From positions 1-20,988 of IMG/VR virus record IMGVR_UViG_3300013307_000053: a DNA stretch of 20,988 bases; one strand, given 5' to 3'. Source of the stretch: a virus. The notes below the pieces were generated by a model, which was not told the origin of the DNA, made no database searches, and worked only from the letters and a program-made list of their open reading frames with translations. Shown here piece after piece: positions 3,931 to 20,909 of the stretch (position 1 is the stretch's first letter; the number at the start of each line of letters is the position of its first letter). A program made the position numbers and the translations under genes.

Positions 3931-4412
3931 CAGTTGATCGTCTCCCTGGTGATCTCGGGGTAGCGCGGGATCGTGAAGCTCATCCGCGCCATCAGGTTGT
4001 GGGTCCAGACCTGGTTACGAGATCCGTTGGCGTCTGGGAGCTGACAGCGCCAGGTCTCCCGAGACTCGTTCAGCGTCCACCTGATCCGGAAGTCCCACTG
4101 CTCGAACAGGGTCTCCAGCAAGGCGTAGTTCTCAGCCAGCTCGGTCTGGTCATCACCGTAGATCCACACCGCCAGGGTCTCGTTGACCATGTCCGGGACC
4201 GCGTGCACCAGGTAGTTGCCGCCCAGGATCGGGGACTCGGTGGTGATCTTCTTGTAGGTCTTCTGGACGTTGTCGCGGGTGCCCTCAGCGCCGATCCGGA
4301 ACCGAACGTGATCGTTGATGTTCTCCCAGCGGGAGCCCCAGGAGACCTCCACCGCCATGTAGTCCAGACGACCAGAGGATTCGGCCAGACCGTAGGGCAC
4401 CGGGTTGGTCAT
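3930..4412 (-). CDS. Minor tail protein immediately downstream of tape measure
   Basis: This 160-residue protein lies directly after the tape measure, the usual position of the first tail-tip component (distal-tail-type protein). It is a soluble mixed alpha/beta protein with a DNVQKTYKK stretch and a region with many acidic and aromatic residues (around WIYGDDQTELAENYALLETLF). The start overlaps the tape-measure stop as ATGA and has a good Shine-Dalgarno (GGAGG) upstream inside the tape-measure gene. The family is one repeatedly seen at this position in actinophage tail clusters, but I cannot assign a fold from sequence alone. Distal-tail function is inferred from position. Confidence 0.62.
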   Translation of the reverse strand: MTNPVPYGLAESSGRLDYMAVEVSWGSRWENINDHVRFRIGAEGTRDNVQKTYKKITTESPILGGNYLVHAVPDMVNETLAVWIYGDDQTELAENYALLETLFEQWDFRIRWTLNESRETWRCQLPDANGSRNQVWTHNLMARMSFTIPRYPEITRETIN

Positions 4413-7400
4413 ACCTTCACACCTCCAAGGGCCGGGTTCGCCATAGCCATCATCCTCTGTCGCTGCTGGAGCGCCGCGATCAACTGGCCAGGGTTGTCAG
4501 CCTGAACGGTGATCGCCCCGGAGAAGGTGGTCGACCGGTCGATGTGGTAGGTGTTCTGGTTGCTGATGTAGATCGGCTGGCTGCCCCGAACGTTCAGCGC
4601 ACGGCCCGCGTTGCCAGAGCCGTACTTGCTCATCAGGTTGGTCATGAAGTCCGCGCCCCGGTCGTTCAGCGGGATCACCGCTTCCGGGCCGCGCTCACCA
4701 ACACCGATGGTCTGAGCCCCGGAGAACACCGCGCCGTCGCCGTACCAGTGGTGGGCCTGCCAGAAGTCCCAGGCCTTGTTCGGGTTCCCGTAGCGCTCCT
4801 TGATGTACTTGGTGCCGTACACCGCCTGGAGGTAGGGGTCAGCGGTCTTGTGTCCGCCGACGCTCGCCCAGGTGGAGTCCAGGAACTGGAACATGCCGTA
4901 CGCGGTGGAGGTCGGGTTCTGGGCGTTCGGGTTGAAGCCGGACTCGTGGCTCACGATTTTGGACAGCGCCCGCCACTGGCTAGGCATCCAGCCGTAGTGC
5001 GAGGCAGCGATCCGAACATCAGCCTCAGGGCTGGTCGCGTCCGATGGCCCAGCCGGGATCGGGCTGGCTCCAGCGGTGGAGTCCGGGCTGTCTCCGAACC
5101 CGGACTTCTTGAGCTGGCGGTAGCGCCTGCGTGCCATCTTGTTGATGATCGCCGAGGCATCCCCGACCCCCAGGATGTGCGGCACGATCCCGGCAGCAGC
5201 AGCCTCGACCTTGGGGTAGCTGTCGTGAAGGATCGAGCGCAGCGACCTAACGGTGCCCACATCGGCACCCCCAGCGGAGTAGCCGAAGTCGCCAGCACCA
5301 CCCAGGTGGTAGACCGTGGTGAAGCCGGGGTCGCGGTAGCCACGGGCCCCAGGACCGACGATCACGCCGTGTCCGCCTCGGGACTCCACGTTCATCCCGT
5401 CCAGGGTTCCGGCCATGTGGCCTACCGAAGAGCCGGGGTAGTGCTTGGTCGAGCCGATGGTGAACTGACCGACACCCGGAGCGAATCCAGGCCACGGGAA
5501 GGACGCAGTCGAGCCGAAGCGGTGGTAGGGGTTGTTGCCCAGCAGCACGTTGGTCAGCGCGCTCATGAAGCCCGAGCAGTCGTAGCCGTTAGGGCCAACC
5601 CCACCCCAGACGTAGGGGTCACCCACCTGAGCCTTGGCGAACCGCTTGGCCTCGTCCAGTCGGGGCTGCGGGATCACCCCACCGTCACGGAAGGCCATCC
5701 GCATCCCGGTGCGGGCAGCCTTGTTCATCTCCGCGACGGCCTTCTCGCCACCGACCATTCGGGTCCACTCAGGGACCATGATCGCCTCGCCGCCAGACAG
5801 GTGCAGGTTGCCTGCGGTGGGGCTGTAGAAGTGGTGCACGTCCTGGCCTGGGGTGTAGCCCGGAAGCACACCACCAGCGGCCTGGTGCACGTCCATGATC
5901 TCGGCGCGGTTCTTGGCAGCCTGGTTGCTGATCGCCTTGGCCTTGGGCGGGGTCCACTCGATCCCGAAGATCGCCGCCAGCGCGGTCATGATGTCGGTGG
6001 AGGCTCCGGTGGTGGAGTCCTTCAGCGCGTTGAACTGGTCCAGCACCGTCTGGGCCTGTTTCTTGGCGTGGCCTCCGAGCTTGTTGACCGCCTTGGTCAG
6101 GATCTCCTCGAAGTTACCGTCGATGGTCTTCGCCGAGCGCGCCAGGTCATCAGCAGCGCGCTGCATCGACAGGTTGTACTGGTCGCGCTGGCGATCCATC
6201 GAGGTGTTGAAGTCGTGCTGCTGGCGGTGCAGCGAGGTCTGGAAGTCGGTGTCCTGGCGACTCAGCGACTTCTTGAAGTCCTCACGAGACTGCTTCATCG
6301 ACAGCTCGAAGTCATCTGCCGCCCTGCTCCGGGACAGGTTGTAGGAGCGCTGGAACTCCTGCCAGTCGGTAGAAGACTCGTCAGTGACCAGATCACGGGC
6401 AGCGGCCAGTCGAGTCTTGACCGCGTCGTTGAACGACTTCACCAGGTTCGGGTCCGCCGCGACCTCAGTGACGAACCGGGAGAGCTGCTGCTGGTTGGAG
6501 GAGTCGGTCAGGTTGAGCTGCTGGATGGCGTCGTCGCTCAACCCCATCTTCCGGAGCTGTCCGAGCTGAGCCTCCTGCTTCTGCATCCGCTGGAGCTGGT
6601 CGTTGGCATTGACCAAGATCCATCGCGCTGAGTTGGTCCGCTGGACGTTGACCCGCTCGTACATCGAGTACATGGCCTTGGCCTGCTGCTCGACCATCAG
6701 CATCACCTGGTGCTGGTGATCCTTCTCTTCACGGTCGCGCTGGAGGTTGAACTGATACCGGTTCCGGCTTACCGACAGCGCGTAGTCCGCCTCGGCGCGC
6801 TTCCGCTGGAGCTGGAAGTCGTGCTCGGAGCGGGACCGCTGGAGATCGAAGTCAGTGAGCGCGTATTGCCGCTGAGTGTTGAAGTCGTCCTCAGCCCGCT
6901 GGCGCGAGACGTTGAACTCGCGCTGCTGGTAGAGCATCTGCTTGAAGTAGTTGTACTGCTCCTGAGTCGACTGCTGGAGCGAGGCCATCTGGGTGTCCAG
7001 GTTCTCCTGGGTGAACCCACCGCTGAAGCCCTTCGCCCGAACCGTGTCCAGAACACCCTGAGTCTGCGCAGTCACCGCACCGAACTGCTGAGGCCGAGTC
7101 ATGTACGGCATCTGGTAGCCGAGGTTCCGCTGAGCGATGGTGAGACCGCCACCGATCAGTCCAGCGCCCATCGAATCGTCCCCGCCAGCGACCTGCTGCA
7201 TCCCGGTCAGAGCCGCGAACTGAGCGCGAATCCCTTGACCGCTGGTCTTCCGCTGGATCTCGTTGATGGCGGCGTACTGCGCGTTCACGTCACCGGTGTT
7301 GGTCAGCGCGGTCTGCACCGCCCGGTTGCCCAAGATGCCAGAGACTCCGAACAGGTTCGCCGAGGCGTCCTTCAGCAGGTCCTGAGTGGTCTCCTGAGTG

Positions 7401-10400
7401 GACTCCCACTTCTTGTAATCCGGGCCGTTCTTGATGGTGTTGTACAGGGCGGTGGCGAACTGCTTGTCGCTCATCCCCTTGTAGTCGATGCCGTAGCGCT
7501 CAGCGACATCCTTGCGGTTGTTGTCGTTGCTCAGCGCCCCGCGTGTGGCCAGGTCAGTGATGTAGCCCTTGAGGTTCTTGCTGTAGCCAGCCTGCTCGAT
7601 GGTTCCACCGGTATCGAAGATCCCGCCGAACGCACCGTTCTCACCCTGGTAGTTGACGTTCTTCAACCCCAGGACGTTCTTCATGAACTGGTGCTCGAAG
7701 GAGCGCCGCTCCGGGGTGGAGACATCACCACCGGCGAAGGCGGCGTACCCCTCAGCAATCCCTCGACCTCGCGTCTGAGCAGCAGCTTGGGCACCAGAAG
7801 TCTGGTAAGTCACGTCAGTCAGGTCGTTGAGCGCGCCGTAGTACTGGTCCAGTGCCTTGGACGAGGCCTTCCCAGAACTCAGCGCGCCGAAGTGCGCCGT
7901 GCCCACCGAAGCCTGATGAGCCAGGTCGGTGAGTCCAGGAAGCTTGCCAGAGTCGAGCTGCTTGAGCATCTGGTTGGCCTGGGTCTCACCGAACTTGTCG
8001 ATCAGGTCCAGCTTGACCGCGTTGATCGCCTCAGGACTCTGGCGCAGTGTCTGCCACTGGATTCCCAGCCGAGCCAGCGCCTGGTCCTTGCTCAGCCCCT
8101 TCAGCGCCGAGTTGGTGAGCTTGTGAGAGTCCGACTTGGCGTAGGCGATGTCAGCCGGGGTGACACTCAGCGCAGCACCGATGCTGGTGACCGCAGGCCG
8201 TTGACGCGCGTAGGAAATGTTCGCGGTCGGCGGTGCACTGATCCCACCAGCCTGGAAGTAGGCCCCACCGAAGTTAGAGGTGTTGACCATCTGGGTGTTG
8301 GCCGAACTCTGGTTCATCCGGCCTAGCATCGACAGGCCAGCGACCCCACCCATGATCCCGAGCATCCAGGGGTTCAGTCCGATAGCGCCCAGACCACGGC
8401 CAGCCAGCTTGCCCGCGTCACGCATCGCGCCACCGGCAGTACCGGCCATCATCATCGACAGGTTGCCCAGGCCGCGACCCAAGGTCATTGCACCTTGTGA
8501 GGCACCCCTGGTGGCTCGCTCCAGGTTGCCCATCGCGGTAGCAGTGCGAGCGTGGAGCGTGGCTTCCCGCTCAGCAGCAGCCCTGCGCTCAGCGTCAGAA
8601 GACAACCCAGCCAGCCGGGAGCCAGCCATCCGCTGCATCCGGCGCTGGATGTCCTCTTCATCTGGCCCAGTAGGCATTCGGCTCAACACCGAACCGGTGA
8701 ATCCAGCCCGGATCGAACCCATGAACCCGGTGATCGGCTTCATTGACTCACCGAAAGTAGGCGCGGTGAACATGTTCCAGCGCCTGGTGATGTCGTTGTA
8801 GCCACCCGAGTTCGGGGTGAACGGCATCCGCATCGCGCCCGCGCCGTAGAGCATGTTGCCGGTCATTCGGGCCAGGCCACCGGTGCCTGCCATGATCGCG
8901 CCAGCGCCCCGACTCATCAGCCCTGGGCCTTCACCACGCGCAGGTAGGAAGGAGCCGAGCTGACGACCGGTGTTGTAGAACGCCCGGTTGGTCCAGGAGC
9001 CGCGCTCCATCACGTTGCGACCCTGCGGACCCAGCGCCGTCCCTGAAGCCATCAGCGCTTGCTGCTCAGCGAACGGGATGCCTCGGCCCTCGCGAACACC
9101 CGAGATCAGACCGCCCCGTACCACCTGGTTGATTGCCGCGAAGGCAGTCAGAGCCTTGGCAGCCATCAGGATCGTCCCGGCCAGAGCGGCGAACGGGGCG
9201 GTGACTCCGACGACCAGCGCAGCCATCTTGCCGAACGGCGAATCCACGACAGCGTGAACAGCCTTGGCGATCATGGTCATCGAATCGAAGAAGTACTTCG
9301 CTGGCTTGGCGAAGGCCGAGCCGAAGTCCTCAGCAGTCTGGGTCATCTCGATGCGGAGCTTGCGCATCGAGTCGGTGATCCCGCTCAGTGCGGCCTGAGA
9401 GCCCCGGTTCATCGCGTTCGGGTCAGCACTACGCGCAGCCGCGATCTCTCCAGCAAGGCCACCCTGCTGGGCCATCGCGGTGATCGTTCGGACTGTGCGC
9501 AGACCGTCCAGACCCATCCGGTTCAGGGTGGTGATCGCTTGGGGACCCTGACGGTTGATCGCGTCGAAGATCTGAGTGATCTGCCCAGTACCGCCCAGCT
9601 CCTTGAACTGCTGGGTGGTCATCCCGACGAGGTTGGCGTACTTGGCCAGTTCCGGAGAGCCCGAGACCGTCGCCTGGGTGATGTCGGTGAGCATCCGGGT
9701 GACCACGTTGGCGGCCTGGTAACCGTCCTGGCCAGCCTTGATGAAGGCGTTCGACATCCCCATGATGTCGGTCTGGCTGATGTTCGCCACGCGCGCGACC
9801 GGGGCGATGGAGTTGGCGAAGCTCAGGATCGAGGACGCCGCTGCGTTGGAGCGCGCCTGGAGCACCGTCAACTGGTTGTTGAACATGTTGGTGTCGCGCT
9901 GGGAGGTGCCCATCGTGCGCTGGAGCTGAAGCATCGAGGCAGCCAGCGAGGACGAAGACTCCCCCATCGCGGCACCGAGCTTGCCGAAGGAGCGCTCCAG
10001 TTGGGTCACCGGAGCGGTCTGGTCGCTCATCTTCGAGATGGTCTGGACCAGTTGGGCAGCCTCAGAGGTCGACTGCGCGAAGTCCCGGCGCAGGCTGTTG
10101 ACCTGGCGTCCGTACTCATCGAACTGGCGACGGCCATCACCCAGAGTGCGGGAGAGCACCGCAGCCTGGACGTTGAGAGAAGTCATCTGCTTCTCCCACG
10201 CGGCGTACGCGGCAGTGGCACCGACGATCACGGCGGTGTCGGCAGCGGACACACCCAGGAGCTTGCGACCAGCGCTCTTGGCGAGCTTGTCTAGCTTGGC
10301 TCCGAGGGAATCAACGGAGGCGGAAAGGGCGTCAGTCTGCTGGGCCGAGCCAGCCATCGCCTGGTTGTACTGAGAGGTATCCGCTGTCAGTACGACGTTG

Positions 10401-10423
10401 GACTGAACGTCCTGATCCGCCAC
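4409..10423 (-). CDS. Tape measure protein with NlpC/P60 and lysozyme-like domains
   Basis: At 2004 residues this is the largest gene and sets tail length. Residues about 60-330 match the conserved N-terminal region of phage tape measures (long amphipathic helices, then a TDIMGMSNAF-like segment). Hydrophobic stretches lie near 396-430 and 680-700 and may cross the host membrane on ejection. Two blocks of 11-residue repeats occupy 1170-1235 and 1361-1426. From about 1600 there is an NlpC/P60 papain-like domain: Cys1616 in YDCSGF and His1669 in VGHMAG are the probable catalytic pair. From about 1800 a lysozyme-like transglycosylase domain follows, with Glu1827 in HESGFNP and a downstream AYGMFQF motif. 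Both would cut peptidoglycan during tail penetration. The start is GTG, preceded by a GAGAGAGG ribosome site and 2 bases after the chaperone stop. At roughly 0.15 nm per residue the helical part predicts a tail of about 230 nm. Confidence 0.95.
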   Translation of the reverse strand: MADQDVQSNVVLTADTSQYNQAMAGSAQQTDALSASVDSLGAKLDKLAKSAGRKLLGVSAADTAVIVGATAAYAAWEKQMTSLNVQAAVLSRTLGDGRRQFDEYGRQVNSLRRDFAQSTSEAAQLVQTISKMSDQTAPVTQLERSFGKLGAAMGESSSSLAASMLQLQRTMGTSQRDTNMFNNQLTVLQARSNAAASSILSFANSIAPVARVANISQTDIMGMSNAFIKAGQDGYQAANVVTRMLTDITQATVSGSPELAKYANLVGMTTQQFKELGGTGQITQIFDAINRQGPQAITTLNRMGLDGLRTVRTITAMAQQGGLAGEIAAARSADPNAMNRGSQAALSGITDSMRKLRIEMTQTAEDFGSAFAKPAKYFFDSMTMIAKAVHAVVDSPFGKMAALVVGVTAPFAALAGTILMAAKALTAFAAINQVVRGGLISGVREGRGIPFAEQQALMASGTALGPQGRNVMERGSWTNRAFYNTGRQLGSFLPARGEGPGLMSRGAGAIMAGTGGLARMTGNMLYGAGAMRMPFTPNSGGYNDITRRWNMFTAPTFGESMKPITGFMGSIRAGFTGSVLSRMPTGPDEEDIQRRMQRMAGSRLAGLSSDAERRAAAEREATLHARTATAMGNLERATRGASQGAMTLGRGLGNLSMMMAGTAGGAMRDAGKLAGRGLGAIGLNPWMLGIMGGVAGLSMLGRMNQSSANTQMVNTSNFGGAYFQAGGISAPPTANISYARQRPAVTSIGAALSVTPADIAYAKSDSHKLTNSALKGLSKDQALARLGIQWQTLRQSPEAINAVKLDLIDKFGETQANQMLKQLDSGKLPGLTDLAHQASVGTAHFGALSSGKASSKALDQYYGALNDLTDVTYQTSGAQAAAQTRGRGIAEGYAAFAGGDVSTPERRSFEHQFMKNVLGLKNVNYQGENGAFGGIFDTGGTIEQAGYSKNLKGYITDLATRGALSNDNNRKDVAERYGIDYKGMSDKQFATALYNTIKNGPDYKKWESTQETTQDLLKDASANLFGVSGILGNRAVQTALTNTGDVNAQYAAINEIQRKTSGQGIRAQFAALTGMQQVAGGDDSMGAGLIGGGLTIAQRNLGYQMPYMTRPQQFGAVTAQTQGVLDTVRAKGFSGGFTQENLDTQMASLQQSTQEQYNYFKQMLYQQREFNVSRQRAEDDFNTQRQYALTDFDLQRSRSEHDFQLQRKRAEADYALSVSRNRYQFNLQRDREEKDHQHQVMLMVEQQAKAMYSMYERVNVQRTNSARWILVNANDQLQRMQKQEAQLGQLRKMGLSDDAIQQLNLTDSSNQQQLSRFVTEVAADPNLVKSFNDAVKTRLAAARDLVTDESSTDWQEFQRSYNLSRSRAADDFELSMKQSREDFKKSLSRQDTDFQTSLHRQQHDFNTSMDRQRDQYNLSMQRAADDLARSAKTIDGNFEEILTKAVNKLGGHAKKQAQTVLDQFNALKDSTTGASTDIMTALAAIFGIEWTPPKAKAISNQAAKNRAEIMDVHQAAGGVLPGYTPGQDVHHFYSPTAGNLHLSGGEAIMVPEWTRMVGGEKAVAEMNKAARTGMRMAFRDGGVIPQPRLDEAKRFAKAQVGDPYVWGGVGPNGYDCSGFMSALTNVLLGNNPYHRFGSTASFPWPGFAPGVGQFTIGSTKHYPGSSVGHMAGTLDGMNVESRGGHGVIVGPGARGYRDPGFTTVYHLGGAGDFGYSAGGADVGTVRSLRSILHDSYPKVEAAAAGIVPHILGVGDASAIINKMARRRYRQLKKSGFGDSPDSTAGASPIPAGPSDATSPEADVRIAASHYGWMPSQWRALSKIVSHESGFNPNAQNPTSTAYGMFQFLDSTWASVGGHKTADPYLQAVYGTKYIKERYGNPNKAWDFWQAHHWYGDGAVFSGAQTIGVGERGPEAVIPLNDRGADFMTNLMSKYGSGNAGRALNVRGSQPIYISNQNTYHIDRSTTFSGAITVQADNPGQLIAALQQRQRMMAMANPALGGVKV
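6146..6343 (-). repeat. Tape-measure 11-residue repeats, block 2
   Basis: Six further 33-base units encode residues 1361-1426, for example YNLSRSRAADD, FELSMKQSRED, FQTSLHRQQHD and YNLSMQRAADD. They keep the same aromatic-first, acidic-last pattern as block 1. The blocks are separated by about 125 residues of ordinary helix-forming sequence. Confidence 0.88.
6719..6916 (-). repeat. Tape-measure 11-residue repeats, block 1
   Basis: Six consecutive 33-base units encode residues 1170-1235. Each unit starts with an aromatic residue (F or Y) and usually ends with D, with Arg or Gln in the middle, for example FNTQRQYALTD, FDLQRSRSEHD and FQLQRKRAEAD. The period is exactly 11 with no gaps. An 11-residue (hendecad) period suits a long straight or slightly right-handed helical bundle. 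Confidence 0.88.
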
Positions 10424-12893: not shown

Positions 12894-13720
12894 CAGGACT
12901 TCCTATTCTGCTTGCGCCACTTGGCCGCAGCCATCTTGCCCTGAACCTCGTTGTACCCGCGCTGGAACTGCTCGCCACCGGGGTATTGCCCAGTGGTGGG
13001 CTTCCCGTGCGCGATGAAGTCGGCGCGGCCCTCCTCGCGGCCCTTGCGGGTCTCGTCCTTGACCCGCTCCTGGAAGTGCACCGGGTTACGACGTGGGCCG
13101 ATGTGAGCCATCTCGTGGCGGTAGGTAGCCGCAGGATCGTGGGCGTCACGGTGGACGAAGGCCATTCCACCACCGCGTCCGTTGATCAGGCTGAAGCCCT
13201 CCATGTTGTTGGGCGAGCCAGTCTCAGCCTTGGAGTACTGCGGGAAGACCTGCTTCAGCTTCCCTCTGGGGGTCTTGATCCCAGGGTTGATCTCGGTGCG
13301 CCCGCTCTGGGGTCGCACGATCCCCTTCTTGCGCGCAGCCGCGTTGCCGAGGGTGGCGTTGCGAACGATGTGCCGCTCGACGTGATCCAGCTTGGCAGCG
13401 GCCTTGTAGCCCACTCCAGGGACGTAGGACTTGGCGACCTCAGGATTCCCGAAGATCGGCTTACGGTTCTGGTCACGCACCTTGCGCTTGGTTCGGGTGA
13501 GTCGTCCCAACGGCTTCTTGTACATCCCCCGAGAGATAGTCATGCGCTGAGCGAGCGGCCCTGCTTCAGAGATCCGATTCAGTTCAAGTCGGGAGTGCGC
13601 GTACGACTGCTTGCGCCAGTTCCCCAGGCTGTAGTCCGATGCGGCATTCTTCAACGCAGCGATGTGGTTCGGCTTCAAGCTCTTCTCGATGCTGTGGGTC
13701 ACCCCGAAGGCACTGATCAT
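12893..13720 (-). CDS. Putative zincin (gluzincin-type) metallopeptidase with N-terminal SAFG tag
   Basis: This 275-residue protein begins MISAFGVTH, the peptide shared with five other proteins in this locus. Near the C-terminus it has HEMAH (His202, Glu203, His206) followed 23 residues later by EGRAD beginning at Glu230. HExxH plus a downstream ExxAD is the zinc-binding and catalytic pattern of gluzincin peptidases, with Glu203 as the expected catalytic base. The first half is basic and predicted helical. There is no signal peptide, so it should act in the cytoplasm or within the virion. It sits between head-closure and gp10-like genes, an unusual place for a peptidase. The start overlaps the previous stop as ATGA. 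Substrate unknown: maturation of virion proteins or action on host targets are both possible. Confidence 0.7.
   Translation of the reverse strand: MISAFGVTHSIEKSLKPNHIAALKNAASDYSLGNWRKQSYAHSRLELNRISEAGPLAQRMTISRGMYKKPLGRLTRTKRKVRDQNRKPIFGNPEVAKSYVPGVGYKAAAKLDHVERHIVRNATLGNAAARKKGIVRPQSGRTEINPGIKTPRGKLKQVFPQYSKAETGSPNNMEGFSLINGRGGGMAFVHRDAHDPAATYRHEMAHIGPRRNPVHFQERVKDETRKGREEGRADFIAHGKPTTGQYPGGEQFQRGYNEVQGKMAAAKWRKQNRKS
13694..13714 (-). other. SAFG tag copy 7 (SAFGVTH, N-terminal)
   Basis: Residues 3-9 of the zincin-like protein, continued by SIEKS. Confidence 0.85.
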
Positions 13721-14133
13721 GAGGTCTTCTCCATGCTGATCACGGTGAACCTACGGGTAGGCCGCATCTCGCCAGCCTTGGCGCTGTCCTGGATCTGGAA
13801 GCGCTTGTTCAACAGAGCCGGATCAGTAGGAGCGCTGGTGATCAGTACCTCGTCGTTGCGCTGCGGGACCACCGGCACGTCCCAAGGGATGGAGAGGTTG
13901 GTGGACTGCATCACGATGTCGGACTCGTTGATCACCACCGGGGAACCGCCAGAGACCTCCCAGACCCGGCAGACACCTTCGTAGATCACCGTCCGTGACC
14001 CTGGGGTGTAGACCAGGCTGTCCTCGTCATGCTCGCCAGCGGTGACCCGTTCGATCCGGCACTGGTACTGCATGACCTCGGTCGCCCGCTTGCGGACGAA
14101 GTCGATGGCCTGCCGACTGATCGGGTAGACCAT
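13717..14133 (-). CDS. Head closure protein
   Basis: This 138-residue protein follows the head-tail adaptor, the position of the head-closure (stopper) protein that seals the connector after DNA packaging. It starts with a helix (ISRQAIDFVRKRATEVMQYQC), then beta strands including RVTAGEHDEDSLVYTPG, CRVWEVS and VVPQRNDEVLITSA, and ends in RRFTVISMEKTS. This resembles the beta-barrel stopper family of actinophages (DUF6093-like). I chose the ATG at 14133, which makes a TGATG junction and lies 6 bases after AGG; a GTG at 14136 would add one residue. The role rests on gene order and predicted fold. Confidence 0.72.
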   Translation of the reverse strand: MVYPISRQAIDFVRKRATEVMQYQCRIERVTAGEHDEDSLVYTPGSRTVIYEGVCRVWEVSGGSPVVINESDIVMQSTNLSIPWDVPVVPQRNDEVLITSAPTDPALLNKRFQIQDSAKAGEMRPTRRFTVISMEKTS

Positions 14134-14612
14134 CACGCACCTGGGTATTCCTCGGCAGGGAAGTAGATCGCGCCTCGGTCGCCGTAGTCCTGCTGACCAG
14201 CAGCCAGATCGTCGTGCATCCCGGTGCCGAAGCTGAAGTTCCTGATCTCAGGCGAGCGCTCCTCGTAGGGGGAGACGCCGCCCACGTCTGGAAGACCCCC
14301 TACGAGGAGACTCTTGTGCTGCTCGCGGAGGCTGGCAGCAAGTACACGGAACTGGTCTCCCACCGGTCCCAGCGACACGCTGACCCCGTCAGCGCTGTAC
14401 GAAGCTTCAGGGGCGTATCGCGCGGCGATGGTGTCAGCCAGCGCCGATGCCACGAACTCGTAGGTCCCGTACTTGGGGAACCACCGGTCGTAGGCGAACT
14501 GGATCTCCTCGTCTTCGAGGTAGTGCCCAGTGTCCTTGGTGTCGGCCAGCAGGAAGCGCACCGTGTCCACAGGATCGGTGCCCAGCTCGGAGGGGTCGTA
14601 GGAGAACGTCAC
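14133..14612 (-). CDS. Head-tail adaptor (connector) protein
   Basis: This 159-residue protein begins with a pattern typical of head-tail connectors: DTVRFLLADTKDTGHYLEDEEIQFAYDRW, a helical region that in this family packs against the portal. Several more helices follow (EFVASALADTIAARYAP and QFRVLAASLREQHKSLL), then a Gly- and acid-rich C-terminal tail. It should bind below the portal and accept the closure protein. The start is GTG, overlapping the previous TAG as TAGTG. Its gene contains the perfect inverted repeat at 14259-14309, encoding residues around LLVGGLPDV to SPYEER. The assignment is strong from the N-terminal pattern and position. Confidence 0.82.
   Translation of the reverse strand: MTFSYDPSELGTDPVDTVRFLLADTKDTGHYLEDEEIQFAYDRWFPKYGTYEFVASALADTIAARYAPEASYSADGVSVSLGPVGDQFRVLAASLREQHKSLLVGGLPDVGGVSPYEERSPEIRNFSFGTGMHDDLAAGQQDYGDRGAIYFPAEEYPGA
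14259..14309 (-). repeat. Perfect 14-bp inverted repeat with nested hairpin inside the adaptor gene
   Basis: CTCCTCGTAGGGGG (14259-14272) is the exact reverse complement of CCCCCTACGAGGAG (14296-14309). A 5-bp stem, AGACG (14273-14277) with CGTCT (14285-14289), nests inside with a 7-base loop. On the mRNA this makes 14 bp, a 6-base one-sided bulge and a 5-bp cap. No U-rich run follows on either strand, so a simple terminator is unlikely. The protein frame is uninterrupted. Confidence 0.9.
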
Positions 14613-15172
14613 TACTTCGCCTTCGTCTGGAGCTGTCCCCCGCCGATCTTCGGCTTCTTGGTGACCGGGGCCTTCTTCATCCCGACCAGGTGCTTCTCAG
14701 CGTCACCCATGTACTTGGTCGCCTTGGCAGCGCCCGGACCGAACGGCTTGACCCCAGGGAACCGGATCGCCTTGGACACGTCGTGGTTGATCCCGAAGGC
14801 GCTCTTGGTGACCACACCGTTGACGGTCTTCTTCTTGTTGTTCCCGTGTCGGTACAGCGCGTAGCCACCGCCTCCGATCACCGCAGCACCGGTCAGCCCC
14901 GGCTTGTAGTTCAGCACGCGCCCGATCCCAGTGCCGACCTTGGCGGTGCCAGTGCCCACGCCGTGACCGATGTCGGCCATGCTCACCTTGGTGTTGGTCA
15001 CCTTGGTGGTGAACCCAGCAGCCTTACGCCCAGCGTTGCCGATCTTCTCGCCCACCCCAGGACGCGCCTGACGCGCCTGTTCGCGCGCGGTGGCATCAGC
15101 GCTCACCCTGCGGAAGCGCGGCCCGCGACGTGCCTTGTTGATCTCGTGGGAGACACCGAATGCGCTGTTCAT
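14612..15172 (-). CDS. Basic Gly-rich virion-locus protein with two SAFG tags
   Basis: I do not recognise a named family for this 186-residue protein. It starts MNSAFGVSHEINKA and carries a second copy of the peptide, KSAFGINHDVSKA, at residues 123-135. Between them lie a basic helical part and a Gly-rich hydrophobic stretch (PGLTGAAVIGGGGYALY, 91-107) followed by a basic linker (RHGNNKKK). It reads like two modules joined end to end: the second tag sits where a gene boundary occurs between the neighbouring 121-residue protein and this one. It is very basic overall, with a Lys-rich C-terminus. The hydrophobic stretch could insert in a membrane or pack in a helical bundle. It starts 4 bases after the previous stop and ends as TAGTG with the adaptor. 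Function unknown. Confidence 0.72.
   Translation of the reverse strand: MNSAFGVSHEINKARRGPRFRRVSADATAREQARQARPGVGEKIGNAGRKAAGFTTKVTNTKVSMADIGHGVGTGTAKVGTGIGRVLNYKPGLTGAAVIGGGGYALYRHGNNKKKTVNGVVTKSAFGINHDVSKAIRFPGVKPFGPGAAKATKYMGDAEKHLVGMKKAPVTKKPKIGGGQLQTKAK
14783..14803 (-). other. SAFG tag copy 6 (SAFGINH, internal)
   Basis: Residues 124-130 of the 186-residue protein, continued by DVSKA. It lies at an apparent module boundary after a Gly-rich stretch and a basic linker. Confidence 0.85.
15146..15166 (-). other. SAFG tag copy 5 (SAFGVSH, N-terminal)
   Basis: Residues 3-9 of the 186-residue protein, continued by EINKA. Confidence 0.85.
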
Positions 15173-15176
15173 GGCC

Positions 15177-15542
15177 TCACTGCCTCTTCCGGTTCATTCC
15201 GAACGCGCCGACACCCCCGGCTGCGGCACCGCCAGCAAGGGCCCCGCCAGTCAGACCGGGATTGGCCTTCATCTTGTTTCCGGCGTTCATCATGCCGAGG
15301 CCGAGCTTCATCTGGCCGGTCCCGATCTTGGACCCGACAGTCCCACCGAAGGCACCGCGATTCAGCCCACTCGCGCCGAGCTTGAACCCAGCCTTGGTAG
15401 TCGCGTCACCAGCCTTGTTGCCCAGCGCCCTGAACCCGCCCCCGATGGTCTTGCCAGCGTTGGAGACCGAGCCAGGGATCTTGGGCATCGCGAACGCCTT
15501 GGAGACATCGCCGTGGTCGACGCCGAACGCAGACTCAGTCAT
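15177..15542 (-). CDS. Small Gly/Ala-rich protein with N-terminal SAFG tag
   Basis: This 121-residue protein begins MTESAFGVDHGDVSKAF. The rest is dominated by Gly, Ala and Lys, with regularly spaced glycines and a C-terminal hydrophobic segment (PGLTGGALAGGAAAGGVGAF, 95-114) closed by the basic MNRKRQ. The same PGLTG, Gly-rich, basic-end order occurs in the middle of the next gene. Glycine-zipper spacing of this sort is seen in proteins that insert into or oligomerise within membranes; that is family knowledge, not proof here. The ATG overlaps the preceding stop by 8 bases (ATGACTGA). No signal peptide or enzymatic motif. The function is unknown; it is located directly after the capsid genes. 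Confidence 0.7.
   Translation of the reverse strand: MTESAFGVDHGDVSKAFAMPKIPGSVSNAGKTIGGGFRALGNKAGDATTKAGFKLGASGLNRGAFGGTVGSKIGTGQMKLGLGMMNAGNKMKANPGLTGGALAGGAAAGGVGAFGMNRKRQ
15513..15533 (-). other. SAFG tag copy 4 (SAFGVDH, N-terminal)
   Basis: Residues 4-10 of the 121-residue protein, continued by GDVSKAF. Confidence 0.85.
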
Positions 15543-15960
15543 CGAGGATTCCCTTCCGACCCTTGCCGTTGACCTCGGCGTTGATCACTCGGTCGTACTC
15601 ATCCTGGTCGATGTGGTCGGACAGCAGGTACTCCAGCACCTCGTTGACGCCGAAGTTGCTGGGGTCATCTCCCGGCCCCATCTTCGGCTTCTCCTTCTTC
15701 GGAGACTCCGACTTCTGCTTCACCCCGAGCTTGTCGAGGACTTCAGACTTGATCCGCACCTCGCGGTGCCAGTGACGCGGCTTCACGTCGTAGGACTCCA
15801 CCACCGGGATGACGTGCCGAGTACGCACCAGCGTCTCGATTCGACCCAGCGCCTCATCCTGAGGGAAGTCTTCGCCGAGCTTGTAGTCCTTGCCGTTGAA
15901 CGTGAAGTTCCGTCCGCAGATGAACTCGACGTTGTCGTTGGTGATGAGCTGACTGGGCAT
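15535..15960 (-). CDS. Small acidic protein after the capsid gene, possible connector-associated
   Basis: This 141-residue protein has a beta-rich first half (VEFICGRNFTFNGKDYKLG, then RHVIPVVESYDV) and a charged linker with many Lys and Pro. It ends in a helix-turn-helix-like tail (NEVLEYLLSDHIDQDEYDRV, then KGRKGILDD). The tail resembles the 'VLxYL...ExxRVxxAExxGKxRKGI' ending of small proteins encoded between capsid and connector genes in several actinophages. Its function is not established; a head-vertex or connector accessory is plausible. A ribosome site (AGGAG, 5 bases before the ATG) lies just after the stem-loop that follows the capsid gene. It has no SAFG tag; SNFGVNE at about residue 115 is only a weak look-alike. 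Confidence 0.65.
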   Translation of the reverse strand: MPSQLITNDNVEFICGRNFTFNGKDYKLGEDFPQDEALGRIETLVRTRHVIPVVESYDVKPRHWHREVRIKSEVLDKLGVKQKSESPKKEKPKMGPGDDPSNFGVNEVLEYLLSDHIDQDEYDRVINAEVNGKGRKGILDD

Positions 15961-15977
15961 TTGTTCTCCTATGACTA

Positions 15978-16007
15978 AGGGGGCCAGGGCCGAAACCCCA
16001 GCCCCCT
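15978..16007 (-). terminator. Stem-loop after the major capsid gene (possible partial terminator)
   Basis: AGGGGGC pairs with GCCCCCT; after a symmetric 2-base mismatch, GGG pairs with CCC around a 6-base loop. It lies 18 bases after the capsid stop (16025) and just before the ribosome site of the next gene. The minus-strand sequence after it has no U-run, so it may act as an attenuator or mRNA-stability element that separates high capsid expression from lower downstream expression. Confidence 0.6.
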
Positions 16008-16024
16008 CGGCATCAGCCGGTCGA

Positions 16025-17023
16025 TCAGGCGACGGCGTCCTTCAGGAAGATCCCCATGTCGGGAGCAACGACCTTCATGTCGTAGGTCATCTCACCCTCG
16101 ATGCGGTCCGCAGCGATGTGCTCCATGCGGAAGTTCTTCATCCGGATGCCGTAGGAGTTGCCTCCGAGGTAGCCGTTCCAGGTGAAGGTGTAGCCCGCAG
16201 CAGGCGTCATGAGCGACGGCGTGTTCGGCGTGTAGCAGAGCAGCGCCGACTTGCTGTTGGTCATGAACTCGTAGGTCGCAGCGTCGTCCTGCTCGACCGT
16301 GTCGTTGCGCTCGGCAACGTCGGTGAACGAGGCGTATGACACCAGGACCTTCTCCACATCGAAGAGCGAGGCCAGAAGGTCCTCGGTCACGACACCACGC
16401 TGGGTGTACTTGATGCGGTCGATGATGTCCGGGTGGTTCTTCAGCGAGGTGATCGCTTCAGCCCCGAGCACCAGCGTGTTGGCCTTGCGGCCCGCCTGGA
16501 GCACGAACTCGGTCTGGAGGTTCGCGAACTGCACGATGGGGTCCGAAGCCGAGTCGCTCCACCGAAGGAACTGGGTGGAGTTCGGGGACGAAGCCACACC
16601 GGTGAGGTCCTTGGCCCAGACGCCCTCCTTGAAGTAGGAGTCGTTCCAGTCGAGGTCGCGGCGAAGGAGAAGCTGGTTGGTCACGAACGTGGTCGCGTCC
16701 TTGTCCAGGCTCCAGTTCGAGTCCGCGTTCGCACGGATCTGGTCGTCGATGTCCTTGTGGACACCCCAGACCTGGGCGAAGTACTGATCGGTGTCGACCT
16801 TCCAACCAGTACCTGCGGTCTCGGTACCCGGCGCGCGCTTCTGCGCGTCGGTACGCCGCCAATCGGACTTGCTGTACTTCCAGTACAGATCCGACTGCTT
16901 CTGGACGGGCACGCGAGGAAAGATCTTGTCCGCGATGAACGAAGACTTGTCCTGCATGTACGCCACAGAGACGTTGGTGAGCGGCACATTGACGTGCAGA
17001 TCGCTCTGAGTCGGGTTAGGCAT
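16025..17023 (-). CDS. Major capsid protein (HK97-fold type)
   Basis: This 332-residue protein has the characteristic N-terminus of a large capsid family in which a short arm is followed by SSFIADKIFPRVPVQKQ and then a Y/W-rich strand (DLYWKYSKSDWRR). The central part holds LLLRRDLDWNDSYF and later LVLGAEAITSLKNHPDIIDRIKYTQRG, a spine-helix region of HK97-fold capsids of this type. The C-terminal strands (YTFTWNGYLG, GEMTYDMKVVAP) fit the axial domain. It lies after the scaffold and decoration genes and has the strongest ribosome site in the window. No fused protease or long delta-domain is present, so the separate scaffold-like gene probably guides assembly. It should form the icosahedral shell that holds the DNA. 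Confidence 0.9.
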   Translation of the reverse strand: MPNPTQSDLHVNVPLTNVSVAYMQDKSSFIADKIFPRVPVQKQSDLYWKYSKSDWRRTDAQKRAPGTETAGTGWKVDTDQYFAQVWGVHKDIDDQIRANADSNWSLDKDATTFVTNQLLLRRDLDWNDSYFKEGVWAKDLTGVASSPNSTQFLRWSDSASDPIVQFANLQTEFVLQAGRKANTLVLGAEAITSLKNHPDIIDRIKYTQRGVVTEDLLASLFDVEKVLVSYASFTDVAERNDTVEQDDAATYEFMTNSKSALLCYTPNTPSLMTPAAGYTFTWNGYLGGNSYGIRMKNFRMEHIAADRIEGEMTYDMKVVAPDMGIFLKDAVA

Positions 17024-17030
17024 TACTCAC

Positions 17031-17038
17031 TCCTCCTT
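17031..17038 (-). promoter_or_regulatory. Consensus ribosome binding site of the capsid gene
   Basis: The minus strand reads AAGGAGGA, 7 bases before the ATG at 17023. This is the full anti-16S consensus at ideal spacing and fits the high copy number needed for capsid protein. Confidence 0.85.
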
Positions 17039-17046
17039 CAGAGCGC

Positions 17047-17445
17047 TCAGTAGAGAAGAACGGAGACGAGTTCGCCTGCGTTCGCCGTAGTGGACAGCGC
17101 CACACCGACAGCATCACCGGTGCCAGCGGCAGCGGCCTGTCCGTCAGCGGAAGCTGCAACTTCGTCGCCAGCATCGAGGGCTGCATCGCAGACCACCTTG
17201 CTGACGCCTCGGATCGCGACCGTAGCCGCGTTGCCCTCGTGCTGGGGCTTGTTCTGGAGAACACCGATGACCTTGTCTCCGGACCCGGCCAGACCGCACT
17301 GGTGTGCACCAGTCACCTTCACGAAGTGGTACTGCTTGCCACCGTGAGGGCTGGGCGAACCAGGCTGGTTCGGGACACCGGTGTACACAGCCAGGCTGTC
17401 ATCAGCGTTCAGCGTGATGGACCGAAGGCTCTCTTCGTACGCCAC
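17047..17445 (-). CDS. Capsid decoration/stabilisation-type protein
   Basis: This 132-residue protein is encoded directly before the major capsid gene, where many siphoviruses encode a decoration protein. It is beta-rich with a Gly/Ala repeat-like middle: a strand (QYHFVKVTG), GSGDKVIGVLQNKPQHEGNAATVAI, then ALDAGDEVAASADGQAA and a final VGVALSTTANAGELVSVLLY. This 'KVIGVLQN...G..V.I.G..KV...A....GD.V....G' order is typical of the DUF2190-like small capsid protein family. The start is GTG, with AGGA 7 bases upstream; no nearby ATG competes. It likely binds the shell surface and stabilises it after expansion. Confidence 0.78.
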   Translation of the reverse strand: MAYEESLRSITLNADDSLAVYTGVPNQPGSPSPHGGKQYHFVKVTGAHQCGLAGSGDKVIGVLQNKPQHEGNAATVAIRGVSKVVCDAALDAGDEVAASADGQAAAAGTGDAVGVALSTTANAGELVSVLLY

Positions 17446-17468
17446 AGCGGTTTCCTACCTTCCCTGTC

Positions 17469-18275
17469 TCAGAATCCCCGCTGCGCGGAGAGGTACTCGT
17501 CGTAGGCAGCAGGGTTCTGGTCGAACACCGCGCTCACGTTCTCGGGGGTTGCGGCCTTGCCGATCTCGACAGCCTGCTGCTCCACCATGCTCATGATGTC
17601 GCCGTTGTCGCCGCCACCCTGGTAGCCAAGCTCGGTGAAGAGGATCTCCCCGGTGGACTCCAGGCACTTGGCGATCACCGCGCAGTCCTCGTAGGACATC
17701 GTCTCGGCCATCCGGTAGAGCACCGGGCCAAGCTCCTGCGGGTCCACCGGAAGGTTGTACTCGGCAGCCTTGGAGATGTACTCGCGGGTCAGGCGCAGGT
17801 CCCGCTCCGACTTCGCGATCTGCTCGGCCTGCTGGTACCGCTTCTCGATCTCGTCCACCCGGCTGAAAGCCTTGGCGAGAACTGCATCGCGCTCGTCGTC
17901 CGAGAACGCCTTCGACAGCTCCTCGCGGATCTGGTCGGCGAAGTTGGTGCTGCGGCTCTGGGACTTGCCGAAAGCAGACTTCGCGACAGCCAGTTCCTTC
18001 TCCTTGGCCTCGGCCTCGGGCTTCTCATCGCCCTCGTCCTCTGCGCCAAGCTCGAACTGGTAGGCGTTGCCCTCCTCGTCGTACACGATGTCACCATCGT
18101 TCAGGGCATTCTCGTCAACGAGACTTCCGTCTTCGTTGTACAGATCGGGCATTACATCCTCCTCGGTAGCCCTCTTTGCGATGGTGATCATCGCGTGCTG
18201 GTTGGCACCCTTGTCGACCAGAGAAATCTCATCGATCTCCATGTCCGACAGGCTTCGGATCGGCCTCTTCGGCAT
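17469..18275 (-). CDS. Scaffold-like protein with XkdF-type ISLVDKGAN motif
   Basis: With the ATG at 18275 this is 268 residues. Residues 15-28 (DEISLVDKGANQHA) match the segment that ends XkdF-type phage protease domains ('EVSLVDxPAN'), but the rest of that domain, including any catalytic Ser and His, is missing. What follows is acidic (about 45-95) and then strongly helical (SKAFSDDERDAVLAKAF, a coiled-coil-like segment up to about 160), ending in AAYDEYLSAQRGF. That composition fits an internal scaffold encoded just before the decoration and capsid genes. It also contains KSAFGK at 99-104, a partial look-alike of the SAFG tag. I chose 18275 because AGAGG lies 8 bases upstream; ATG 18281 and GTG 18284 are too close to that site. 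A degenerate protease remains possible. Confidence 0.7.
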   Translation of the reverse strand: MPKRPIRSLSDMEIDEISLVDKGANQHAMITIAKRATEEDVMPDLYNEDGSLVDENALNDGDIVYDEEGNAYQFELGAEDEGDEKPEAEAKEKELAVAKSAFGKSQSRSTNFADQIREELSKAFSDDERDAVLAKAFSRVDEIEKRYQQAEQIAKSERDLRLTREYISKAAEYNLPVDPQELGPVLYRMAETMSYEDCAVIAKCLESTGEILFTELGYQGGGDNGDIMSMVEQQAVEIGKAATPENVSAVFDQNPAAYDEYLSAQRGF

Positions 18276-18315
18276 CTCCATCACCTCTAGTTCTCAGTCT
18301 CGTAGGTACGTCTAG

Positions 18316-19164
18316 TCAGTCGTGTAAAACGCCGAAAGCTGATGTAGCGCTCTTGGAGTAAGAAGCCCAGCTCGCGGAGTCGCGCTTGTGCTTCAGGTGC
18401 TTCGACCCTGCCGCCGCAGCCGCCGAAGATAGCCCCAACGCGGCAGCGGTCTTCAGATTCTTGCGCCCCGCCGTCCGCAGCACGGTTCCCTGCCCCTTAG
18501 CCCAGGAAGCCTGCCCACGAGTCATCGGCCCGACCAGACCCTTGGGGCGCACCACCCGAGAGCGCAGCAGCTTGTCTGCACCAGCTCCAGCCGACGCAGC
18601 CGCGCCAGCTCCCGCAGCAGCCGACACGCCGGTGGCGAGCTTGGGGTAGGTCTCAGCGCGCTTGCGCCGGTTGGCCTCCGGGTCGTACTTGCGTGCGACC
18701 GGTTCCCACTGCTTCGCGAAACCTACGACACCGTAGGTAGGAGCCATCTCGTCCATGCTCTTGGCCACCTTCTGTCGCTTCCGGGACTCCGCGTTGGTGT
18801 ACGCCGCGAAGTTGTAGCCACCCACGCCGCCGATGCCACCGGAGACCAGACCGATGTTCTGTGCGCCCTCGCGGAGCTTGTCGGGGTTGGCCTTCTTCAG
18901 CCCAGGGACTGCCTTGAGCAGCCCCGGCTTCTTCTTCAGCGCCAGCGAGGTACCGAGCAGCCCGACACCAGTCAGACCCAGGGTCGAGGTGGTTCGGCTG
19001 ATGTGGCCCTGGAGCTTCTTGCGCCGACGCAGCTCAGCGTCGCTCATCAGCGGCTTCTCGGCCTTGGCGACCTTCTTGCGCCGGATCTCGGCATCCCACT
19101 TCGCCGCGATCTCTGGGTGCTTGGCGTGCATGTACCGCCGCTGGGCATCGCTCTTGTACGGCAT
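18316..19164 (-). CDS. Basic virion-locus protein with KSDAQRRYMHAKHPEIA head and C-terminal SAFG tag
   Basis: The first 24 residues (PYKSDAQRRYMHAKHPEIAA and on) match a short conserved head found on many phage proteins of unknown role ('KSxAQxRYMxAxHPExAxxW'). After it come basic linkers and four Gly/Ala-rich hydrophobic stretches, at about 61-76, 103-122, 166-186 and 239-253, then the ending SAFGVLHD (275-282). Total length is 282. The Leu in the tag uses the codon TTA, uncommon in this G+C-rich DNA. The start forms a TGATG junction with the preceding tagged gene. It looks like a protein that can insert in or associate with membranes, or that binds DNA through its basic parts. The function is not known; the pattern is shared with its two upstream neighbours. 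Confidence 0.7.
   Translation of the reverse strand: MPYKSDAQRRYMHAKHPEIAAKWDAEIRRKKVAKAEKPLMSDAELRRRKKLQGHISRTTSTLGLTGVGLLGTSLALKKKPGLLKAVPGLKKANPDKLREGAQNIGLVSGGIGGVGGYNFAAYTNAESRKRQKVAKSMDEMAPTYGVVGFAKQWEPVARKYDPEANRRKRAETYPKLATGVSAAAGAGAAASAGAGADKLLRSRVVRPKGLVGPMTRGQASWAKGQGTVLRTAGRKNLKTAAALGLSSAAAAAGSKHLKHKRDSASWASYSKSATSAFGVLHD
18319..18342 (-). other. SAFG tag copy 3 (SAFGVLHD, C-terminal)
   Basis: These are the last eight codons of the 282-residue protein. One extra Asp follows the His, as in the internal copy where Asp also follows. Confidence 0.82.
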
Positions 19165-19991
19165 CAGTGCTCGATTCCGAAGGCGCTAGCGTTCTTCTTC
19201 ACGTTCCTGCGGCTGGCCGCGTAACCGGCAGCTCCACCAGCCGCCGCCATCCCCACGGTAAGGGCAGTACCAGAACGCCCGGTTGCGGCGTGCGCCATGC
19301 CTCGCTTCAGCTTCCAGCCAGGTAGGTCCTTGGGGTAGTTGATGTTGTACTGCCGCCAGCCAGGGTGACCTGCCTGAGCGTTCTTCGGCAGGTAGGCGTC
19401 TCGGTGCGTCTTCCACTTCGCCTTCAGATTCGGGTCGTTCTTGATCTTGCGCTCGGCTGGCTTCTCGAACGGCTTGGCTGCGAGAGAAAGACCCTGGTAG
19501 CCGAACCCGCCCGCGACCGCACCACCGACTGCGGCATCAGCATCCCGACGCCGGGTTGGGGCACGCTTCTCGAACTGGTTGCGGATTCCGTGCCAGGCCA
19601 TCGGGACCCCCACACCAGCGCCGACTGCCCAGGCGTTGGTCTGGTTGTTGAAGACCTTCATCTTCTTAGCGTTCCGGGCGATTCGGTAGGACTTGTCCGC
19701 CTTGCCTTGAAGGGTGCGGATCTTGGTAGCCCGCTTGGCCTTGTCCGCCGCACTCTCTGCTGAAGCGAAGTGGGACAGCTTGCCGTTGGACACCACGCGC
19801 GGCTTGGGCCGGTTCGCCTTCAGATCACCGATCTTGGCCTCTTGGCTCTTGGCCCGGTTGGTGAACGCGGTGCTGACCCGGCCTCGGACGGCGTGCTCAG
19901 CGCGAAAGCCAGCAGGGACTCCAGTGGCCATCGCCGTACCGACGCCAGCCTCTGCGAGCCCTACCTTCTGCTTCCGGGTGCGCTCAGGCAT
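19164..19991 (-). CDS. Basic Gly/Ala-rich virion-locus protein with C-terminal SAFG tag
   Basis: I do not recognise a named family for this 275-residue protein. Hydrophobic, glycine-spaced stretches lie at about 10-28, 120-133, 152-171 and 241-260, separated by Lys/Arg-rich linkers (such as RATKIRTLQGKADKSYRIAR). The last stretch is followed by RRNVKKNASAFGIEH, so the tag sits at the extreme C-terminus directly after a basic linker. A Trp/Pro-rich part near 192-227 could be a small folded domain. There is no signal peptide in the Gram-positive sense. The start is 3 bases after the previous stop, with only a weak ribosome site, implying coupling. A virion or ejection role is inferred from location and composition. 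Confidence 0.68.
   Translation of the reverse strand: MPERTRKQKVGLAEAGVGTAMATGVPAGFRAEHAVRGRVSTAFTNRAKSQEAKIGDLKANRPKPRVVSNGKLSHFASAESAADKAKRATKIRTLQGKADKSYRIARNAKKMKVFNNQTNAWAVGAGVGVPMAWHGIRNQFEKRAPTRRRDADAAVGGAVAGGFGYQGLSLAAKPFEKPAERKIKNDPNLKAKWKTHRDAYLPKNAQAGHPGWRQYNINYPKDLPGWKLKRGMAHAATGRSGTALTVGMAAAGGAAGYAASRRNVKKNASAFGIEH
19167..19187 (-). other. SAFG tag copy 2 (SAFGIEH, C-terminal)
   Basis: These are the last seven codons of the 275-residue protein. The peptide is identical to copy 1, but several codons differ (for example GGA against GGG and TCT against AGC), so it is not a recent exact duplication. Confidence 0.85.
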
Positions 19992-19994
19992 CGC

Positions 19995-20909
19995 TCAGTG
20001 CTCGATCCCGAACGCAGAGACGCTCGCGCTCTTACCCAGCGCAGTCTTGTACTTGCGCTGACCCTTGACCCGACCGACGTAGTCACCGCGCTGTTGACCA
20101 GCGAAGGCACCGAGGAACCCACCGCCAATCGCGCCCTGCTTCGGGGTGATCCGACCACGAGAAGCGGCAGCAGCGCCAATACCAGCCGCAGTCCCAAGCG
20201 CACCACCAGCAAGAGCACCCTTGCCTTGGCCCTTCAGTTGCTCCTTGGACTGGATCTTGGCAGCGACCCGACGCTCCTGCTTGTTGTAGGGACCCTTGTT
20301 GGTGAAGTCGGAGTTCCAGACCAGAGCCTTGTGGCGCTCCTGGGGCGTGGCGTTCAGCCGCTTGCTCAGTCCAGCCATCTTCTGCTTCTTCCGGTAGAGG
20401 TCCTGCCTGTCCTTGGCGTCTTGCATCTTGGCCCGGTAGCCGAGCGGGGCCCCTACTGCGGCAGCACCAACGGTGGCGTACTTGACCGGCTTGAGCCCAG
20501 GCCAGCGCGGCTGCTTCAGCTTGGATGCCGCAGAGCCCAGCTCGGTGATCTTGTAGACCTTCGCCTTCCCGAACTTCTGAGCGTCGGGGTACTTCTTCTT
20601 CGACCTCCGGTGAGCCGCCGCCGCTCCAGCACCAGCACCACCAAGCAGACCAGCGGAGCCACCAGTGATAGCAGCATTGGTGAGGATGCTGGTCCTGGCT
20701 TCCTGCTCAGCGAACCCCAGGCCTTCTGGGGCGCGGTACTTGTTGCTGCCGATCTTGTCCCCGGTGTGCGGGTTCCGCGCGCGAGTCGAGGTGGCGTTGC
20801 CGAAGAGGTTCTTCGCCTTCGCACCCATCCGGTTGGGGCGCTTGAACGGCGGTGGCTTGGGCGGTTTGAAGCCGGGGAGATGCACCATCTCCGCGTGGAT
20901 GTTCGGCAT
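19995..20909 (-). CDS. Basic Gly/Ala-rich virion-locus protein with C-terminal SAFG tag
   Basis: This 304-residue protein has no family I can name. The N-terminus is Pro/Lys-rich (PGFKPPKPPPFKRP). Glycine-spaced hydrophobic stretches lie at about 75-99, 145-157, 231-249 and 259-271, again divided by strongly basic linkers, and the last seven residues are SAFGIEH. The organisation parallels the next two genes, suggesting a related set produced by divergence or shuffling. The start overlaps the previous stop as TGATG. Membrane insertion during genome delivery, or packing inside the capsid, would both suit the composition; neither is shown by the sequence. Confidence 0.68.
   Translation of the reverse strand: MPNIHAEMVHLPGFKPPKPPPFKRPNRMGAKAKNLFGNATSTRARNPHTGDKIGSNKYRAPEGLGFAEQEARTSILTNAAITGGSAGLLGGAGAGAAAAHRRSKKKYPDAQKFGKAKVYKITELGSAASKLKQPRWPGLKPVKYATVGAAAVGAPLGYRAKMQDAKDRQDLYRKKQKMAGLSKRLNATPQERHKALVWNSDFTNKGPYNKQERRVAAKIQSKEQLKGQGKGALAGGALGTAAGIGAAAASRGRITPKQGAIGGGFLGAFAGQQRGDYVGRVKGQRKYKTALGKSASVSAFGIEH
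19998..20018 (-). other. SAFG tag copy 1 (SAFGIEH, C-terminal)
   Basis: These are the last seven codons of the 304-residue protein, preceded by a basic linker and a Gly-rich hydrophobic stretch. Confidence 0.85.

Follow-up and report, generated by a model that had tools for sequence, protein, structure and literature searches.

A seven-residue peptide with the core consensus SAFG[VI][DE]H is shared by largely unrelated, basic accessory proteins encoded in the late operon of an uncultivated phage and its relatives, a large group likewise uncultivated. Reasoning from sequence, we consider it probable that these proteins use the peptide to dock on one shared partner in the head during assembly, and thereby enter the procapsid and are probably delivered with the DNA. 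The peptide would be a portable address tag: a short linear motif for docking, which a protein can acquire at its N- or its C-terminus. The tag would bind its partner within the head, the docked proteins would become enclosed in the procapsid, and once enclosed they would probably enter the cell along with the phage DNA at infection. The docking partner may be the scaffold-like protein p4, or otherwise the inner shell or the portal.

The tag in the window

The window, meaning the whole stretch of DNA that was analysed, comprises 20,988 bases of a fragmentary IMG/VR virus record and holds a phage late operon on the - strand. SAFG[VI]xH occurs seven times in six window genes, all on the - strand, and each copy listed by a first-pass annotation was found where that annotation had placed it (extensions in brackets):

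19998..20018, - strand, SAFGIEH, C-terminus of p1, residues 298-304 of 304
19167..19187, - strand, SAFGIEH, C-terminus of p2, residues 269-275 of 275
18319..18342, - strand, SAFGVLH-D, C-terminus of p3, residues 275-281 of 282
15513..15533, - strand, SAFGVDH(GDVSKA), N-terminus of p5, starting at residue 4
15146..15166, - strand, SAFGVSH(EINKA), N-terminus of p6, starting at residue 3
14783..14803, - strand, SAFGINH(DVSKA), internal in p6, starting at residue 124
13694..13714, - strand, SAFGVTH(SIEKS), N-terminus of p7, starting at residue 3

The DNA pattern used for the window scan, WSNGCNTTYGGNRTNNNNCAY, gave 7 matches where 0.01 were expected from shuffled DNA, and the tag was observed 7 times in the window proteins against 0.0003 expected from shuffled proteins. 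A partial eighth copy, SAFGK, lies at 17978 inside the scaffold-like p4 gene (17469-18284). The six proteins with complete copies are:

19995-20909, - strand, p1, accessory protein with tag, 304 aa, pI 10.8, Gly/Ala/Lys-rich
19164-19991, - strand, p2, accessory protein with tag, 275 aa, pI 11.1
18316-19164, - strand, p3, protein with tag, 282 aa, pI 10.7
15177-15542, - strand, p5, small basic protein with tag, 121 aa
14612-15172, - strand, p6, basic protein with two tags, 186 aa
12893-13720, - strand, p7, protein with tag, 275 aa, predicted zinc peptidase

The pI of these carriers is 10.7-11.1; for the rest of the head and tail proteins of the window it is mostly 4-5.4. The first-pass annotation had regarded the carriers as otherwise dissimilar. 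For most of them this is right, but p5 resembles the first half of p6 as a weak paralogue (E 5e-4). The first 116 residues of p6 also match free-standing proteins with the tag, and p6, with its 'internal' copy, appears to have arisen when two tagged genes fused. The protein p7 is likely a zinc peptidase, because HExxH and GREEGRAD are invariant among p7 and its homologues; its fold model is poor (pLDDT 52).

The tag is not obligatory, since p3 occurs untagged in relatives and one p7 homologue (L010), in a genome with tags, is without the tag core. The p3 family counts 60 ORFs in the related loci, 36 of them tagged, and in the homologues without the tag the protein stops just ahead of the tag position.

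The N-terminus of p3 (18316-19164) has a second recurrent peptide, MPYKSDAQRRYMHAKHPEIAAKWDAE, which is also found in L036, L201, L219 and L289 (Streptomyces phage FlowerPower gp48). Its carriers differ greatly in length and some come from lineages in which the tag is missing; a W-type tag directly follows it in L215 and L219.

Number, placement and codons of the tag in related loci

Related loci were fetched from IMG/VR by their major capsid protein (16025-17023 in the window), and the tag was also searched for directly by pattern; the records are fragments and partly redundant, and gene calls were simple. These loci hold 267 distinct tag contexts (200 N-terminal, 49 C-terminal and 18 other). 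Many of the 18 are chance matches, and the distinct copies number about 250. The motif as first described is thereby confirmed, on a far larger scale than the seven copies from which it was noticed.

All 200 N-terminal copies lie within 12 residues of the start codon, 163 of them as exactly Met-x-SAFG. Their usual consensus is M-x-S-A-F-G-[VI]-[DE]-H-G, with a looser [VI]-x-K after it. The C-terminal copies mostly stop at the histidine or shortly past it and are preceded by K(R)D(T/A). Because all four Ala, all four Gly and all six Ser codons are in use among the copies, selection acts on the peptide and conservation is at the protein level.

An unbiased search for terminal peptides in common ranked the tag first in L045 and L052 and near the top in L054; in deeper lineages the same search gave no shared terminal peptide above noise. 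The N-terminal form was searched for by pattern in 84,980 genomes of bacteria and archaea; of the three matches none was a convincing tag with extension, and a motif of host or prophage genes was rejected on this count. A short tblastn query of the tag, a search of low sensitivity, gave no match in cultured phages, and no tag was seen in those phage loci of Arthrobacter and Microbacterium that were examined. We found no phage paper containing 'SAFGV' and no publication on the tag. The host is at a guess actinobacterial, going by the nearest cultured phages, which infect Arthrobacter and Microbacterium.

Proteins that carry the tag

With the tag masked, the carriers in the related loci form 99 BLAST groups, about 90 of them without evident chance matches, and remote homology may merge some of these. 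The N-tagged proteins (n=188) are small and very basic, with a median pI of 10.9 and 99% above 9, and their net charge per residue is +0.12 versus -0.015 for untagged neighbours. Against the untagged genes of these loci, a set obtained by simple ORF calling with some spurious ORFs among them, carriers are more positive and richer in Gly+Ala and in GxxxG (each p<1e-22).

Few carriers match known families, namely portals (three loci), one MuF protein, a GNAT acetyltransferase and Gly-zipper domains, and searches of the carriers with PADLOC and NCBIfam gave almost no matches. The tag of the portals is C-terminal in L177 and L179 and lies behind the portal domain in L176, and that of the MuF-type minor head protein lies just past the MuF domain; Phage_Mu_F matched only 1 of the 108 carriers scanned. 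The earlier statement that connector proteins are free of the tag thus holds in the window and fails in relatives, where some portals and one MuF protein have it. Portals and MuF proteins are families tied to the portal vertex or the interior of the capsid, and as carriers they point towards the head interior.

An ADP-ribosyltransferase identity for L176:3657-4127 was a guess that got no support. In L206, positions 6947-8839 encode a 630-residue N-tagged protein beside two small tagged genes; its sole family match is a short PHROG.

Genomic position and lineage-specific spelling

The carriers are late-operon accessory genes lying between the terminase/portal and tail genes. In gene maps the tagged genes are inserted among core genes for portal, protease half, scaffold, cement, capsid, p10, adaptor, stopper and tail, several of these names resting on synteny with annotated Arthrobacter phages. 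Counted by hand over 12 whole records with tags, about 58 of the 73 strict matches lie within 10 kb of the capsid gene. Most of the more distant ones that could be mapped flank portal, terminase or fibre genes, and a few are unmapped.

Within the window's clade on a tree of the capsid protein, 39 of 40 members have the tag; outside this clade it is patchy, a distribution that needs about seven changes when F-type tags only are counted. Lineages first scored negative turned out to have variants, including SVWGVDH two to three times in one genome and forms in SAW, SYW and SPW; a first impression of a sister clade without tags was dropped once these W-type variants turned up. The sister lineages spell the tag SVWGVDH or SAWG[VI]xH, and F and W are rarely mixed within a genome. 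In 36 groups with at least two tags, F and W were mixed in 2 versus 10.2 expected, and 4 were W-only versus 0.1 expected, the groups being joined by shared sequence, so that the test is approximate and shared descent contributes. This uniformity of spelling within a lineage suggests one shared, co-evolving receptor, and the agreement within genomes could in part be shared descent.

More tentatively, and with somewhat less than even confidence, we propose that the tag is a position-independent code for entry into the head, with a lineage-specific spelling (SAFG, SxWG) read by one docking site, used by an open-ended set of about 90 basic families and, in some lineages, by portals and MuF proteins, and possibly mimicking a scaffold segment of the form S..F...ELSKAF.

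Core head genes and the candidate receptor

Four core head genes of the window are free of the complete tag:

17469-18284, - strand, p4, scaffold-like, with the C-terminal strand of an S78-type prohead protease and a long helix; candidate receptor
17047-17445, - strand, p9, structural cement/head fibre-like protein, never with tag
16025-17023, - strand, major capsid protein, phrog_1005, never with tag
15535-15960, - strand, p10, head-region protein of unknown function, never with tag

Across the loci the tag was found on 0 of 81 scaffold, 0 of 73 cement, 0 of 87 capsid and 0 of 53 p10 ORFs.

Our best guess for the receptor is p4, for four reasons: every one of these phages has it, it contains a long helix, its flexible, disordered linker includes the partial tag (SAFGK / SAFF), and LSK(A) is invariant in one of its helices. 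p4 also has an EELSKAF helix; the resemblance of the invariant LSK(A) helix to the [VI]SKA extension of the tag may be chance. The p4 model is helical and scaffold-like (pLDDT 71), and a comparison of this fold with the PDB gave no confident match. Alignment columns separating F from W lineages numbered 1 in capsid, 8 in scaffold and 1 in cement, and are unconvincing, being confounded by phylogeny. p10 is present almost throughout the main tagged clade, and few of the sister lineages have it. It was rejected as receptor: despite tracking the main clade, it is absent from the tagged outliers L064, L066, L072 and L073.

The prohead protease is seemingly split. An upstream half (L045:4831-5868) ends in GFSIHG and matches a phrog of head maturation proteases, and the last conserved protease strand, EIDEISLVDKGAN, opens the scaffold-like p4 gene (17469-18284). 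Genes of the p3 type with the tag sit between the two protease halves in gene order.

Alternative explanations

A docking or packaging tag, as the first-pass annotation proposed, is the reading best supported by the late head region, the terminal placement, the basic and largely unrelated carriers, the portal C-termini and MuF protein, and the spelling; docking to a head component, packaging and ejection of the carriers are steps that we infer.

The tag might instead be a recognition site of the prohead protease, with carrier ends trimmed during maturation. Such a protease is encoded beside the tagged genes, apparently in two parts, one upstream and the other at the start of p4, the flexible p4 linker contains the partial SAFGK / SAFF, and in T4 the capsid-targeting sequences (CTSs) are removed by the protease (PMC5694885). 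This alternative, already raised in the first-pass annotation, is weakened because no junction is common to the two sets of copies: [VI]xK follows the N-terminal ones, and K(R)D(T/A) comes before the C-terminal ones. All seven residues are conserved whichever side they are on, and where a C-terminal copy ends exactly at His, as several do, only the tag itself could be removed. We regard processing as an unlikely role.

We attach similarly little probability to docking at another virion site, such as the neck, the outer capsid or the tail. Tagged genes do interleave with adaptor, stopper and tail-completion genes as well, but a genuine tag was seen on no tail, tube or tape-measure protein, and the carriers, with their high basicity and many Gly-zipper (GxxxG) stretches, resemble ejected or DNA-associated proteins. 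The portal tags are C-terminal, where by homology they would be expected to face the lumen.

It is equally doubtful that the tag has no assembly role and acts after injection, binding a host or phage partner in the cell as an effector motif, stabiliser or degron. T4 internal proteins do act in the host, and a few carriers are enzyme-like (the GNAT acetyltransferase match and the HExxH protein p7). A motif of this sort, however, is hard to square with its presence on portals and a MuF protein, with the location of the mapped copies in the late operon, and with a spelling that tracks phage lineage.

An artefact of DNA or of gene history, either a recombination sequence at gene borders or relics of repeated single-gene duplication, is very improbable: although copies sit at gene ends and some carriers (p5, p6) are paralogous, the peptide is nearly invariant while synonymous codons are saturated, copies occur at both N- and C-termini of families with no other detectable likeness, and duplication alone would not preserve just seven residues. 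A DNA recombination or regulatory element in particular is refuted by the lack of any conserved nucleotide sequence together with the use of every Ala, Gly and Ser codon.

Comparison with known systems

The closest parallel to a docking tag for head entry is the CTS of phage T4, which directs the internal proteins IPI, IPII, IPIII and Alt into the prohead core (PMC3012670, PMC12373910, PMC5694885). The leader that packages the T4 proteins Ip1-3 is all that they have in common; once injected, they work against host defences (PMC12373910, PMC3012670). In both cases a short terminal peptide is the sole similarity among unrelated accessory proteins, and the T4 carriers IPII and IPIII are likewise basic (pI 9.3 and 9.5). 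The T4 sequence, MKTYQEFIAEA in IPII and IPIII, is unrelated to the SAFG tag, and it is N-terminal and cleaved, whereas the SAFG tag may be N-terminal, C-terminal (49 copies) or internal. T4 further has its own type of scaffold and protease, while the tagged phages use a different capsid lineage, phrog_1005, and the SAFG tag is on many more carrier families, portal and MuF proteins included. The SAFG tag thus appears to work like the T4 CTS yet stands outside that family, because its sequence differs and it is not restricted to the N-terminus.

The first-pass annotation had likened the tag to encapsulin cargo peptides, a comparison less apt than that with the T4 CTS. Cargo-loading peptides of encapsulins, short and mostly C-terminal, bring unrelated proteins into a shell of the HK97 fold, but this shell is no phage head and does not package a genome. 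The SAFG tag is mostly N-terminal, its shell is the phage capsid phrog_1005, and the late operon of the relatives has a portal. It is not an encapsulin cargo peptide, because the shell is that of a DNA phage.

In SPP1, the portal targets the MuF protein gp7 to the procapsid interior (PMC6316719). SPP1 gp7-type proteins and MuF effector fusions thus resemble our proposal in being carried into the procapsid interior by way of the portal, and one tagged carrier is itself a MuF protein; in the effector fusions a whole domain is fused to the cargo, where here a seven-residue tag would suffice. N-terminal propeptides of ejection proteins in the giant phages SPN3US and phiKZ have been proposed to steer them into the prohead (PMC5694885); unlike the SAFG tag, several of these exceed 100 residues, and they are cleaved. 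A column of scaffold has been proposed as the docking site of the P22 ejection proteins (PMC12005531).

In T4-like phages, families of injected anti-defence proteins came to light once a common leader peptide had been detected. If a tag of unrelated phages can be read in this way, their injected effectors could be listed from metagenome sequence alone, and head-entry tags would then not be peculiar to T4. The tag would also offer a seven-residue handle for loading proteins into another type of capsid, and with a defined peptide, cargo and candidate receptors the entry of accessory proteins into such heads becomes testable.

Additional features of the window

Positions 1-273 hold, on the + strand and so opposite to the late operon, a truncated frame that by eye is HNH-endonuclease-like. 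The tape-measure-like protein (4409-10423) has near its C-terminus an NlpC/P60-like stretch, DPYVWGG...YDCSGF, and a lytic-transglycosylase-like segment, SHESGFNPNAQNPTSTAYGMFQF, both likewise judged by eye.
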